From the NCBI RefSeq assembly GCF_001423185.1, contig NZ_LMOB01000001.1, forward strand, positions 1,719,889-1,783,888: 64,000 nt of DNA. The letters run 5' to 3'. The translations under genes and the position numbers were made by a program. The notes under the pieces are model-generated. The model was not told the DNA's origin. It did no database searches and saw nothing but the letters and a program-made list of their open reading frames with translations. Every line of letters begins with the position of its first letter. Position 1 is the stretch's first letter. Below, piece by piece: positions 23,205-38,563 of this stretch. This DNA comes from Plantibacter sp. Leaf314. GTDB lineage: Bacteria; Actinomycetota; Actinomycetes; Actinomycetales; Microbacteriaceae.

Positions 23205-23222
23205 TACAACCAAATGGTTGTA
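23205..23222. promoter_or_regulatory. Palindromic operator across the ArsR start codon
   Basis: TACAACCAAATGGTTGTA is a perfect 18-bp palindrome (8-2-8). The arsR-type ATG is at 23214, inside it, and TAACCT at 23200-23205 is a candidate -10. A bound ArsR dimer would cover the transcription start and initiation codon, so self-repression is the likely role. Confidence 0.75.
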
Positions 23223-23594
23223 CAAACTGACGCAGGACCGGAGCTGTCCGCCGACGAGGTGGACCGCCTCTTCCACGCGCTCGCCGACGCGACCCGACGG
23301 GACATCCTCACGAGGGTGCTCGCCAGGGAGCAGTCGGTGACGGCGCTCGCCGAGCAGTACGAGATGTCGTTCGCCGCTGTCCAGAAGCACGTCGCCGTCC
23401 TCGAACGGGCTGCACTCGTGATGAAGGAACGACGCGGCCGGCAGCAGATCGTGCACGGCGACGTCACGACCGTGCAGCGATCCGCCCGCCTCCTGGACGC
23501 CTACGCGGACGTCTGGAACCAACGGGCGCTGCGCATCGGAGCGATCCTCGCCGAGGACGGACCGGAGCGCGGCGACACACTCAACACCCCCTGA
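23214..23594 (+). CDS. ArsR-family transcriptional regulator
   Basis: Winged-helix regulator of 126 aa: LFHALADATRRDILTRVL, SVTALAEQYEMSFAAVQKHVAVLERAALV (recognition helix) and the wing RRGRQQIVHGD. There is no Cys pair, so it is not a classical metal sensor; it belongs to the subfamily paired with AHSA1/SRPBCC proteins. The perfect palindrome over its start codon points to autorepression. The SRPBCC gene begins 27 nt downstream in the same direction. Confidence 0.93.
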   Translation: MVVQTDAGPELSADEVDRLFHALADATRRDILTRVLAREQSVTALAEQYEMSFAAVQKHVAVLERAALVMKERRGRQQIVHGDVTTVQRSARLLDAYADVWNQRALRIGAILAEDGPERGDTLNTP

Positions 23595-23621: not shown

Positions 23622-24107
23622 ATGAGTACGCTCACCGCCGAGAAGGACCTCGACCAGCTCACCTTGACCTTCGTCGCCGAGTTCGACGCACCGCCGACGC
23701 GTGTCTGGGAGATCTGGGAGGACCCGCGTCAGCTGGAGCGCTGGTGGGGACCGCCGACCTGGCCGGCCACGTTCACGCAGCACGCCCTGACCCCGGGGTC
23801 CGAGTCCGTGTATTTCATGACCGGGCCGGACGGCGAGCGCGCGCACGGCTGGTGGGAGATCACCGCGGTCCGGGCGCCCGAATCCCTGAGCTACGAGGAC
23901 GGGTTCGCGGACGAACACGGCGCACGCCAGGAGGGGATGGGCGTCGTGCACGCCACCGTCACGCTCGAGGCCCTCGGGACCGGCACGCGCATGACCATCG
24001 AGAACCGCTTCGACAGCCTCGAACAGCTCGAGCAGCTGCTGGCGATGGGCATGGAGGAGGGCATGGGACAGGCGATGGGCCAGATCGACGCCCTCCTCGC
24101 GGCGTAG
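23622..24107 (+). CDS. SRPBCC/AHSA1-domain protein
   Basis: A 161-aa helix-grip fold protein. EFDAPPTRVWEIWEDPRQLERWWGPP is the canonical N-terminus; TPGGSESVYFM-like and HGWWEITAVRAPESLSYEDGFAD follow, and the long C-terminal helix QLEQLLAMGMEEGMGQAM closes a hydrophobic pocket. Family members bind lipids or act as Hsp90-activator-like chaperones; the ligand is unknown. It is co-transcribed with the ArsR regulator, whose activity its ligand may report. Ends in a hairpin at 24141-24172. Confidence 0.9.
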   Translation: MSTLTAEKDLDQLTLTFVAEFDAPPTRVWEIWEDPRQLERWWGPPTWPATFTQHALTPGSESVYFMTGPDGERAHGWWEITAVRAPESLSYEDGFADEHGARQEGMGVVHATVTLEALGTGTRMTIENRFDSLEQLEQLLAMGMEEGMGQAMGQIDALLAA

Positions 24108-24133: not shown

Positions 24134-24179
24134 ACGCACCGCCCGCCGCCCCCGGTCACGGGGACGGCGGGCGATGCGG
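24134..24179. terminator. Terminator hairpin, left copy flanking the AbiE module
   Basis: The core GCCCGCCGCCCCC pairs with GGGGACGGCGGGC (24141-24172, one mismatch). The whole 46-bp element matches 25693-25737 with about four differences (including one gap). It follows the SRPBCC gene. Confidence 0.8.
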
Positions 24180-24258
24180 TCGGTTCAACTCGGGGCGCGG
24201 CCGGTGGCGTACGCGCGAGCAGCCATACGCTCGATGAACGGATCGGGACGGGTCACTG

Positions 24259-25101
24259 TCAGATTGCAGCCTCAGCCGTCGCCGCGTCGATTCGGCGAAT
24301 GAAGTCGTTCGCCCACACTGCGGCAGCCTCGGCATCCGGCAGGACCTCGACCCCGTCTGCAGCCGTTTCGTACAACGTGTCCCAGTCGGCGTTCACGACG
24401 ACGAGAGGCGGCCATTCGTGCCCGCCGCGGTAGGCGAACAGTCGCGTGCACGTCTCGCGCACCAGTTCCAAGTCGAGGTCTTCCTCGCGATCGAGGAGCT
24501 GCAAGTCGATGAGGTCGTGTGCGCGCTGGCTGTCGACCCCGGTCGCTGCGTGGAGCTTCTGCGCGATCTGATGGTCGCTGCGCATCACGTGGACCGGCTC
24601 CGGGCGGGGAAGTCCGACCGCTTCGAACAGGTCCGCGAGGTCATCCGAGAGCACGATCTCGGGCTCGTCGGCGTCGCCGATCTCGTTGTGACCGAGCTCG
24701 AACGTGACGGTGCACCACGGCCTGCCCCGATAGTCGAGTTTCACGTCGAACGGCTGCATGACGTATGTCGCCGGAACCCCGGCCGGTTTCGGTGGCGTGC
24801 GCTCGATGAGTCGCCCGGTGAATCCCGCCCACCCGTTGCGCAACCGTTCCTCGAACTCGCTGACGAACTCCGCCAGGGTGCCCGATCGCGCAGCATCGAG
24901 ATCCCTCGTGAATCGGGTGGCCCGACCGTATCGGAGCGCCATCGCGCTCCCACCCTTGATGGCCCCGGCTGGAAGCATCTGACCGACCACGACGAGTGCC
25001 ATCGCAACGGTACGCCTGTTCACCAGCCCGTCGTCGCCTTCGAGGTTCGCGACCCGCTGACGGAGTGAACGGAGGCTCGGCGGGACACTGTCGTACGTCA
25101 T
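24259..25101 (-). CDS. abiEii: AbiEii-type nucleotidyltransferase toxin
   Basis: Toxin of a type IV toxin-antitoxin/phage-abortive-infection pair, 280 aa. The nucleotidyltransferase motif is visible: KGGSAMALRY (residues 49-58) and RFTRDLD (63-69), with the Gly-Ser and Asp-x-Asp needed for catalysis. The later QIAQKLHAATG helix with its conserved Lys is typical of AbiEii. Such toxins modify tRNA or other acceptors with nucleotides when phage infection upsets the balance with AbiEi. It overlaps the antitoxin gene by 4 nt. The base composition is less GC-rich than the surroundings. Confidence 0.9.
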   Translation of the reverse strand: MTYDSVPPSLRSLRQRVANLEGDDGLVNRRTVAMALVVVGQMLPAGAIKGGSAMALRYGRATRFTRDLDAARSGTLAEFVSEFEERLRNGWAGFTGRLIERTPPKPAGVPATYVMQPFDVKLDYRGRPWCTVTFELGHNEIGDADEPEIVLSDDLADLFEAVGLPRPEPVHVMRSDHQIAQKLHAATGVDSQRAHDLIDLQLLDREEDLDLELVRETCTRLFAYRGGHEWPPLVVVNADWDTLYETAADGVEVLPDAEAAAVWANDFIRRIDAATAEAAI

Positions 25102-25637
25102 ACGTCCAGCGCCGTTCGCACGCGCGCGAGCTCCGCGGTCGTCAGGTAGCCCTCCGCACGCGCTTGGTCGGCGGCTTCACGGAGCCGACCAGTCTGGACA
25201 CGCCCCCGGCATTCGAGGAGCGCATCCACGACGGGCTGCGCCGCGATGCCCTCGTACATCGTCGGCCTCGCATCCGCAGGAGCCCGGGTGATGGCGATTC
25301 GATCGGGTACCGTACGCCGAGTACGCCGAGGAGTTGCGACGGAGATGGTCTTCGGGTTCACATCCGCGAGGCCGAGGAGCGCAAGAACCGTCTCCCCGCG
25401 CAGGAACGCACCCTCTCCTGCGCGCAGCGTCGCCTCCGCGTATTCGTCCAGCGGGGTGTGCGGGATGGTCTCGTCGCGGTACAACCCGTACGCGATGTGC
25501 GCGAACCTGTTGCGTGTAGCGAGCTTCACCAACTCGACCTTCGGGACACCGGCGTCCTCCGCATCACGGGTGGTCACATACCCGTAATTGTCGGCTGCGA
25601 TCTCATGCACGACATCTCGATAGGTTCCCTGCGACAT
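25098..25637 (-). CDS. abiEi: AbiEi-type antitoxin
   Basis: Antitoxin and repressor of the AbiE pair, 179 aa. The N-terminal winged helix (YGYVTTRDAEDAGVPKVELVKLATRN) is the DNA-binding AbiEi_4-type domain; the rest (YGLYRDETIPHTPLDEYAEA, FLRGETVLALLGL) is the conserved antitoxin domain. TATAGT is exactly 6 nt before ATG, so a leaderless start. The inverted repeat TATAC...GTATA (646-663) overlaps this promoter and is a plausible AbiEi operator. First gene of a two-gene operon with the toxin. Confidence 0.9.
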   Translation of the reverse strand: MSQGTYRDVVHEIAADNYGYVTTRDAEDAGVPKVELVKLATRNRFAHIAYGLYRDETIPHTPLDEYAEATLRAGEGAFLRGETVLALLGLADVNPKTISVATPRRTRRTVPDRIAITRAPADARPTMYEGIAAQPVVDALLECRGRVQTGRLREAADQARAEGYLTTAELARVRTALDV

Positions 25638-25643
25638 GTCAAA

Positions 25644-25664
25644 ACTATACCATTATCAGTATAC
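25644..25664 (-). promoter_or_regulatory. AbiE promoter with an inverted repeat
   Basis: Here the otherwise GC-rich DNA turns AT-rich. TATAGT (minus strand, 644-649) sits 6 nt before the abiEi ATG, and TATAC (646-650) with GTATA (659-663) makes an inverted repeat around the -10 region. A negative autoregulatory site, as known for other AbiEi proteins, is likely. Confidence 0.6.
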
Positions 25665-25692
25665 TTTTGCCGCGCTGCACTGGACATCGTCG

Positions 25693-25737
25693 ACGCACCG
25701 CCCACCGCCCCCGATCACGGGACGGCGGGCGGTGCGG
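25693..25737. terminator. Terminator hairpin, right copy flanking the AbiE module
   Basis: The element GCACCGCCCACCGCCCCC...GGCGGGCGGTGC forms a hairpin directly after the FBP-domain gene stop and is nearly identical to the copy at 24134-24179. The two copies bracket the AbiE genes. Confidence 0.8.
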
Positions 25738-25742
25738 CCTGC

Positions 25743-26237
25743 TCAGCCGACGCCGTTGAGCACGGACGAGGTGAACGCGACCGCCCGCTGCTGCAGGGTC
25801 GCGATCCGCTCCTGTCGGGCGGCCTCGGCGTCGAATCCGACGTAGGCGAGCGGCGGCAGCTTGCGCACGTTGGCCGAGCACTGGAACTCGGCGCACACGA
25901 GCGTGCCGACCGTGTCACCGTTCTTCCCGGCCTGGCCGGCACGCTTCGCGCTGTAGAAGACGACGTCGTTGCTGAGGGTCACGTCCTGGCACCAGGCGCA
26001 CTGCGGCCGGGTCCGTGGCATGGCGTCAGCCTGCCGGAGGAGGACGCCGACGGGTGCTCCGTCGACGATCGTCACGACATACGCGCGCCGCGGCAGCTTC
26101 TTGTCGCGCCACCCGAGGAAGTCACGGACCTCGAAGTCGATGGTCTCGAGCTCGGCGGGCAGTGACACGTCACTCACCTCCTTGCGTGAGGCGTTGACGA
26201 AGGAGGTTCTGATCTGGGAGTCGTTCAGGGGGATCAT
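25743..26237 (-). CDS. FBP-domain protein (EF-G-binding-type treble clef zinc finger)
   Basis: A 164-aa protein similar to the FBP_C domain of FusB/FusC-like elongation-factor-G-binding proteins. The zinc ligands are in CAWCQD (about residues 81-86) and LVCAEFQCSANV; the N-terminus QIRTSFVNASRKEV is the family start. Such proteins rescue stalled EF-G, notably after fusidic acid, but actinobacterial homologues are untested. An in-frame extension to 26459 has Pro/Arg-rich composition and is not used. Terminates at the right-hand hairpin copy. Confidence 0.82.
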   Translation of the reverse strand: MIPLNDSQIRTSFVNASRKEVSDVSLPAELETIDFEVRDFLGWRDKKLPRRAYVVTIVDGAPVGVLLRQADAMPRTRPQCAWCQDVTLSNDVVFYSAKRAGQAGKNGDTVGTLVCAEFQCSANVRKLPPLAYVGFDAEAARQERIATLQQRAVAFTSSVLNGVG

Positions 26238-38476: not shown

Positions 38477-38534
38477 TTCGTTCGCCCATCTTTGGGCGAA
38501 CGAACGCCGCTTCGCCCAAAGATGGGCGAATGAA
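38477..38534. repeat. Double-hairpin palindromic element (BIME-like)
   Basis: Arms 38477-38500 and 38511-38534 are complementary over 24 bp with one mismatch, with a 10-nt spacer. Each arm is itself a hairpin: TTCGCCCA-TCTT-TGGGCGAA on the left, TTCGCCCA-AAGA-TGGGCGAA on the right. It lies just after hpaD and before the acetyltransferase promoter and can serve as its terminator. Confidence 0.75.
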
Positions 38535-38563
38535 CGGGGACTTCGCCTCCCTATGCTGGCCTG

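Follow-up and report, generated by a model that had tools for sequence, protein, structure and literature searches.

Terminator-like hairpins as apparent sites of gain and loss of small gene units in Plantibacter: an AbiE operon, its hairpin frame and its empty site

How does a two-gene toxin–antitoxin operon come to lie between two near-copies of the same hairpin? The question is raised by a locus of Plantibacter sp. Leaf314 (G000), found within a 64,000-nucleotide stretch of its 3.96-Mb genome (G000:C1:1719889-1783888; ‘the window’). Reading across the locus from left to right, we see SRPBCC(+), hpL, AbiEii(-), AbiEi(-), hpR and FBP(-), such that the SRPBCC and FBP genes converge upon the hairpin-framed operon. 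Its features are as follows:

23214-23594, ArsR-like gene beside SRPBCC, with which it forms the ArsR-SRPBCC pair at the FBP slot
23622..24107, + strand, SRPBCC (AHSA1) gene, the left neighbour; profile match
24134..24179, no strand assigned, hpL, the left hairpin copy, between the convergent SRPBCC(+) and AbiEii(-) genes
24259..25101, - strand, AbiEii, nucleotidyltransferase toxin homologue of 280 aa; Pfam PF08843 at 5.2e-19, PADLOC AbiEii at 1.9e-114
25098..25637, - strand, AbiEi, antitoxin/repressor homologue of 179 aa; PADLOC AbiEi at 2.7e-55, Pfam AbiEi_4 (PF13338)
25638..25671, no strand assigned, AT-rich inverted repeat at the AbiEi promoter; putative autoregulatory operator
25693..25737, no strand assigned, hpR, the right hairpin copy, between the 3' end of FBP(-) and the AbiEi promoter
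25743..26237, - strand, FBP_C treble-clef zinc-finger gene, the right neighbour; profile match

An earlier, sequence-only reading of this DNA had put the difference between the hairpins at 24134-24179 and 25693-25737 at about four positions; both sets of coordinates are exact, and aligned over 46 columns the copies show 4 substitutions and one 1-bp indel. Compared with dinucleotide shuffles, hpL folds with z-scores of -5.1/-5.7 (+/- strand) and hpR with -2.9/-5.0; three of 200 shuffles fold as well as hpR on the plus strand, and none of 200 for the remaining three folds. On the minus strand the stems of hpL and hpR are both uninterrupted, the plus-strand mismatches becoming G-U pairs—a pattern that fits selection on minus-strand RNA (the strand of AbiE and FBP), and with it the use of the hairpins as terminators for these genes. 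That they are terminators had been proposed from the outset, and the strong folds and their position agree with this; saying this, there is no T-run 3' of either hairpin and a terminator scan returned 0 hits, and it is because a T-tract is lacking that we infer terminator function from position and fold.

The identification of the intervening genes as an AbiE module is borne out by Pfam and PADLOC matches for both AbiEi and AbiEii. The AbiEi_4 match (1.5e-5, 25.5 bits) stands barely above its cut-off of 25. The end of AbiEi and the start of AbiEii overlap by 4 bp, as for a single operon; an AbiEi gene adjacent to AbiEii within one operon is the arrangement by which AbiE type IV systems are recognised, the winged-helix profile being just over cut-off. 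The AbiEii/DUF1814 motif is given as hG[G/S]x15DhD, together with a motif III lysine (KLxA..) and a motif IV of the form +DxxD (PMC3985639, PMC7319586). The AbiEii of the window carries KGG(x15)DLD at residues 49-69, in which the first position is K, not hydrophobic, and the x15 spacing is as for AbiEii; KLHA follows at 182 (motif III) and HDLID at 195 (motif IV), with H where K/R is described. In keeping with described AbiE type IV toxin–antitoxin systems (PMC3985639, PMC7319586), the locus is bicistronic, encodes nucleotidyltransferase motifs and has an inverted repeat at its promoter. By analogy with what PMC7319586 describes, the repeat at 25638-25671 is a possible AbiEi autoregulatory operator; a related inverted repeat also precedes the AbiEi gene of Herbiconiux. 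The hairpin frame is not part of AbiE. As to base composition, the module had been called less GC-rich with an AT-rich promoter: the promoter stretch (25638-25692) is indeed 45.5% GC, but the two AbiE genes, at 66.1%, are only slightly below their surroundings (window, 70.5%; SRPBCC, 69.5%; FBP, 67.9%).

AbiEii is present in one of the seven Plantibacter genomes; across a family-wide set of 398 genomes it is matched, at E up to 0.001, in 24, G000 included. The closest copy belongs to Herbiconiux sp. GW715_bin.41, with AbiEii 82% and AbiEi 88% identical, whilst the FBP of G017, from the same genus group (g12) as that copy, is only 61% identical; DNA similarity with Herbiconiux spans 24281-25678, i.e. 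it lies within the hairpins. Since AbiE is far closer to Herbiconiux than FBP is to its g12 counterpart, and the DNA likeness is held inside the hairpins, horizontal acquisition of AbiE is likely from these comparisons. No like hairpin pair flanks AbiE in Herbiconiux, and a frame of like hairpins was found at 0/6 related AbiE loci in other genera, leading us to reject it as a general property of AbiE. Our search for AbiEii on phages gave zero matches and that on plasmids 4 records, each of <60% identity; the core of the window's hairpin had 0 matches in viral contigs. As a separate observation, AbiE in Herbiconiux sp. GW715_bin.41 (L178:5565-8058, L097) lies directly upstream of homologues of ArsR-SRPBCC (53% and 59%), so that, compared with the window, the order of the four genes is a circular permutation; this may be due to chance.

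What would the site look like without its operon? Among named relatives the nearest is Plantibacter sp. VKM Ac-2880, whose SRPBCC is 98% identical. In the sister genome (L061/G004) SRPBCC faces FBP with a single like hairpin between them and no AbiE: the empty site foreseen by the sequence-only reading, which had also named an AbiE-free relative with both hairpins as the outcome that would count against it. The blastn blocks of the two genomes meet inside the hairpin. The alleles differ in length by 1558 bp, against a spacing between hpL and hpR of 1559, so that the longer one has the operon plus one hairpin in addition. It is this unit that distinguishes G000 from its sister at the locus, and the same structure recurs with three other modules and an unrelated hairpin (below). 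The proposal of an inserted phage-defence island with duplication of its landing site is thus supported in part, by the one-hairpin empty site; the hairpins enclose a module of two genes rather than an island. Across 169 kb aligned between G000 and G004 (the window plus 6/20 sampled stretches, one of these about half aligned) there are six indels of at least 500 bp, one of which—AbiE—is framed by like hairpins; two of the other five have some hairpin at one edge. A 1.96-kb stretch of the sister (G004:C1, about 788868-790830) is missing from the window, its edges without hairpins.

A covariance model built from three copies (two from G000, one from G004) and run on seven Plantibacter genomes scores the window copies at 73.6 and 72.5 bits and the single G004 copy at 65.7; every other place reaches at most 34 bits, opposite-strand readings of the three sites apart. 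With strong scores at the two G000 copies and the one in G004 only, we reject the wide repeat family that the sequence-only reading had named as the second outcome counting against it. BLAST with hpL and its flanks returns hpR at 63.5 bits; next come hpR read on the opposite strand (40.1) and a single further site (39.2). The half-site behaves differently: allowing up to 3 mismatches there are 7 matches in the window vs 8.4 expected, and allowing up to 2 there are 84+71 in the genome vs 51+68 for the reversed pattern, a mild excess; exact matches in the genome number 3, all at the AbiE locus. Rarity thus attaches to the complete hairpin and not to the bare half-site.

The FBP gene is found in all seven Plantibacter genomes searched, and the stretch downstream of it varies. 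The ArsR-like and SRPBCC genes occupy this FBP slot in G000 and G004 only, and are absent there from the other five genomes, which carry a different, unrelated palindrome of about 59 bp. In these we see FBP-hairpin-CPBP (G005); FBP-hairpin-DUF559-hairpin-CPBP (G002); FBP-hairpin-DUF559-hairpin-LacI/DeoR type (G006); and FBP-hairpin-TetR/SDR-hairpin-DUF559-hairpin-LacI/DeoR type (G001 and G003), the last being runs of gene-hairpin-gene-hairpin with three hairpins in 2.6 kb. Overall, the seven genomes display six different contents at the slot, one of them empty, G001 and G003 being the same. A second slot, between SDR-like and GH2-like genes, holds a hydrolase + PucR-like module between two hairpins in G001 and G003, and one hairpin without this module in G005, G006 and G002 (the names CPBP, SufS-like, GH2-like and second-slot SDR are given from the look of the sequences). 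The other hairpin-framed islands that the sequence-only reading suggested looking for are thus present: three modules in sister species, framed by copies of an unrelated hairpin.

For each, allele size follows hairpin spacing: 985 vs 985 for the DUF559-like module (G002 vs G005), 1557-1558 vs 1555-1556 for TetR/SDR (G001/G003 vs G002 and G006), and 2200 vs 2199-2200 for hydrolase + PucR-like (G001/G003 vs G005, G006 and G002), so that in all four units, AbiE included, the difference lies within 0-2 bp of the spacing. An edge test places both ends at hairpins in three of these units; TetR/SDR passes at one edge only, because blastn ran about 59 bp beyond the hairpin. The same comparisons contain other indels of at least 500 bp, about eight distinct ones when grouped by eye; seven have hairpin-free edges, and the remaining one is ArsR-SRPBCC. 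At the FBP slot a hairpin marks a single edge both of ArsR-SRPBCC and of a G003 stretch of about 10 kb that includes a LacI/DeoR-type gene. As these loci were picked for having hairpins, their recurrence is no measure of rate. The idea that the TetR/SDR and DUF559 modules move elsewhere in the genus was set aside, no close second copy appearing at E up to 1e-20 and one 67% partial match, in G006, being found.

A model of the 59-bp palindrome gives at least 33-47 matches per genome in these five (both strands, E up to 1), and at least 7 and at least 2 in G000 and G004, with best E among those listed of 5.5e-7 and 0.19, all these counts being lower bounds with 150 candidates scored per genome. 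Among the matches listed, 6/13 gaps in G003 are at most 5 kb vs 0.20 expected, and sites are clustered in six of the seven genome/contig sets tested, the exception being G002 contig 12 (for which a length of 210,000 was used, the actual contig being 240,786); the test took listed sites of at least 40 bits and left out G001 contig 1, G002 contigs 6 and 9, and G006 contigs 8, 9 and 10. A viral link of this second family was rejected, its 2 exact half-site matches in viral contigs bearing no hairpin. In G003 the listed sites of the CTGAGTCGCCC palindrome lie within about 0.33-1.50 Mb of the 4.08-Mb chromosome (G003:C1:331334-1504207), as if the family, among the matches listed, were confined to part of it. 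The window itself has a palindrome at 38478-38536 that belongs to a dispersed Plantibacter hairpin family of TTCGCCCATCTTTGGGCGAA type, whose half-site has 11 to 41 matches per genome (up to 2 mismatches) in the seven Plantibacter genomes.

The reading we lean towards is that a horizontally acquired AbiE was exchanged, as a unit of genes plus one hairpin, by recombination between hairpins in a turnover slot downstream of FBP. The stretch downstream of FBP would act in Plantibacter as a slot for gene turnover, with terminator-like hairpins as its joints. A hairpin on incoming DNA would recombine with the resident hairpin, leaving one on each side of AbiE—for example through a circular or looped molecule that carries the operon and one hairpin, and a single crossover—and the reverse crossover would delete the unit. 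The likely agent would be the general recombination machinery, favoured because there is no recombinase among the identified genes of the units, because allele sizes match hairpin spacing, because one hairpin pair shows homogenisation and because no Y1 transposase was found in the seven genomes. The homogenised pair, on contig 2, consists of palindromes that are nearly the same in sequence and lie about 1.1 kb from each other (L291:6092 and 7218 in G000; L292:6154 and 7294 in G004), in which a loop base is common to both copies within G000 and within G004 and differs between the genomes, a hint, from one base, of concerted evolution or gene conversion between hairpins; the pair is present in both genomes, so that what it displays is homogenisation, with no gain or loss. 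Mobilisation of the REP/RAYT or IS200/IS605 kind is rejected, the Y1 (HUH) transposase PF01797 being found in 0/7 Plantibacter genomes (positive in 5/14 of a control set). Counting against the favoured mechanism, hairpins of 45-60 bp offer little length for homologous recombination.

The joint could be the same and the direction reversed: the common ancestor already had hairpin-AbiE-hairpin and the G004 lineage deleted the operon by recombination between hairpins, for which the same geometry is expected. We consulted an unrooted tree of three genes from this one locus, FBP and a SufS-like gene among them (2787 columns), which groups G000+G004 (1.0), G001+G003 (0.975) and G002+G005 (0.857). With the TetR/SDR and hydrolase modules at these slots confined to G001+G003, a single gain there is the simplest account of both. 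DUF559 is present in G001, G002, G003 and G006 and missing from G005, so that loss in G005 is plausible; here the tree favours the deletion route. For AbiE, the two genomes with the ArsR-SRPBCC context cannot separate gain from loss, and AbiE may have arrived before the split of G000 and G004. Against loss, AbiEii occurs in one of seven Plantibacter genomes and is close to the Herbiconiux copy, and so looks a late arrival in the genus; we consider loss in the sister rather unlikely. The hairpin arms themselves give a mixed picture: in 10 comparisons the 5' arm of the short allele is nearer the left copy in 9 (1 tie), whilst its 3' arm is nearer the right copy in 4, the left in 4 and tied in 2, such that both expectations for a chimera hold in 3/10, all at the second slot; AbiE is not among these, the sister arm there being about 2 bases out of register in the comparison.

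Alternatively, hairpins and operon came together independently: insertions are safe in the gap between convergent genes, AbiE has a terminator of its own, whether brought along or evolved in place, and later gene conversion or shared composition made the two hairpins alike. G000 itself provides a case of the kind. Its second slot (G000:C1:2032697-2033436, L316) holds, between the convergent SDR-like and GH2-like genes, a VapBC-like toxin–antitoxin pair that is absent in G004 (VapB, 9.6e-8; PIN domain, 0.0018 and under Pfam's cut-off), around which no hairpin copies were seen by eye; hairpins are therefore not the only route. In addition, GC-rich half-sites of the hpL/hpR kind are common, and the contig 2 pair is an instance of homogenisation elsewhere. 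Against this stand the agreement of size and spacing within 0-2 bp in four cases and the fact that hpL and hpR are each other's sole strong matches in the genome. A census of 464 kb of G000 (the window plus 20 sampled 20-kb stretches) also speaks against it: 59 long hairpins form 27 pairs within 5 kb, 24/27 of which are below 75% alike, and hpL/hpR are the most alike (0.91) of the three pairs that reach at least 75%, the other two being 58 and 157 bp apart. We regard independent placement as distinctly unlikely.

Very improbable, finally, is dedicated site-specific or folded-hairpin recombination in which the hairpins serve as cassette sites for a trans-acting recombinase, as with integron cassettes or dif modules: the joints do fall at hairpins, the identified module genes include no recombinase and G001 and G003 have cassette-like runs, but no recombinase is linked to the hairpin sites, module orientation is mixed, the two loci searched in Rfam gave no match, the two exact half-site matches in viral contigs lack such a hairpin, and loops differ among the three hairpin copies in G003, where most site-specific recombinases need identical crossover regions. 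A bolder extension of the exchange that we favour—an integrase-free Plantibacter cassette system, in which terminator-like palindromes would serve as in-register joints that insert, delete and re-terminate genes-plus-one-hairpin units (toxin–antitoxin pairs among them) in one step, possibly via a trans-acting, so far unrecognised hairpin-directed recombination activity—we also think unlikely.

Parallels exist in better-known systems. Integron cassette arrays place a folded hairpin site after every gene unit, a likeness to the Plantibacter units, although the uniform orientation of integron cassettes is not seen in the Plantibacter modules. Toxin–antitoxin pairs are among the contents of Acinetobacter dif modules. 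These modules (PMC13141974, PMC12907356) are likewise small and bounded by short sites of recombination, with the difference that they use XerCD whereas in Plantibacter the frame is a palindrome of 45-60 bp, in two versions unrelated in sequence. The minimal mobile elements of Neisseria, as set out in PMC3898611, are regions between conserved genes with different whole-gene cassettes across genomes, and the FBP slot likewise holds different whole-gene cassettes beside a conserved gene; the same paper proposes dRS3 palindromic repeats flanking a gene as a possible site of integration or deletion. Neisseria repeats are, however, numerous there—about 700 dRS3 and nearly 2000 uptake sequences per genome, dRS3 being the target of a phage integrase (PMC3898611)—whilst the hairpin of the window has two strong copies only and no known enzyme. 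Compared with the Neisseria elements, Plantibacter presents just one duplicated hairpin around the unit in the window, employs two unrelated hairpin sequences in the same role in sister lineages, and follows a size rule of unit plus one hairpin. Among the papers listed in a literature search, none describes hairpin-joint gene turnover in Plantibacter; the print record may contain one.

How small operons enter chromosomes without a transposase or integrase is a question that the four long/short allele pairs make testable. In Plantibacter, terminator-like hairpins appear to be the sites at which small gene units lacking their own recombinase come and go. In the mechanism that we favour, hpL would end the transcripts of AbiE and SRPBCC, and hpR those of FBP ahead of the AbiEi promoter, so that the operon would arrive insulated; if hairpins are joints, a module would have a terminator on either side, and so be insulated, from the moment it is gained. 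Such insulation, if true, would favour toxin–antitoxin operons and similar units that are intolerant of read-through.
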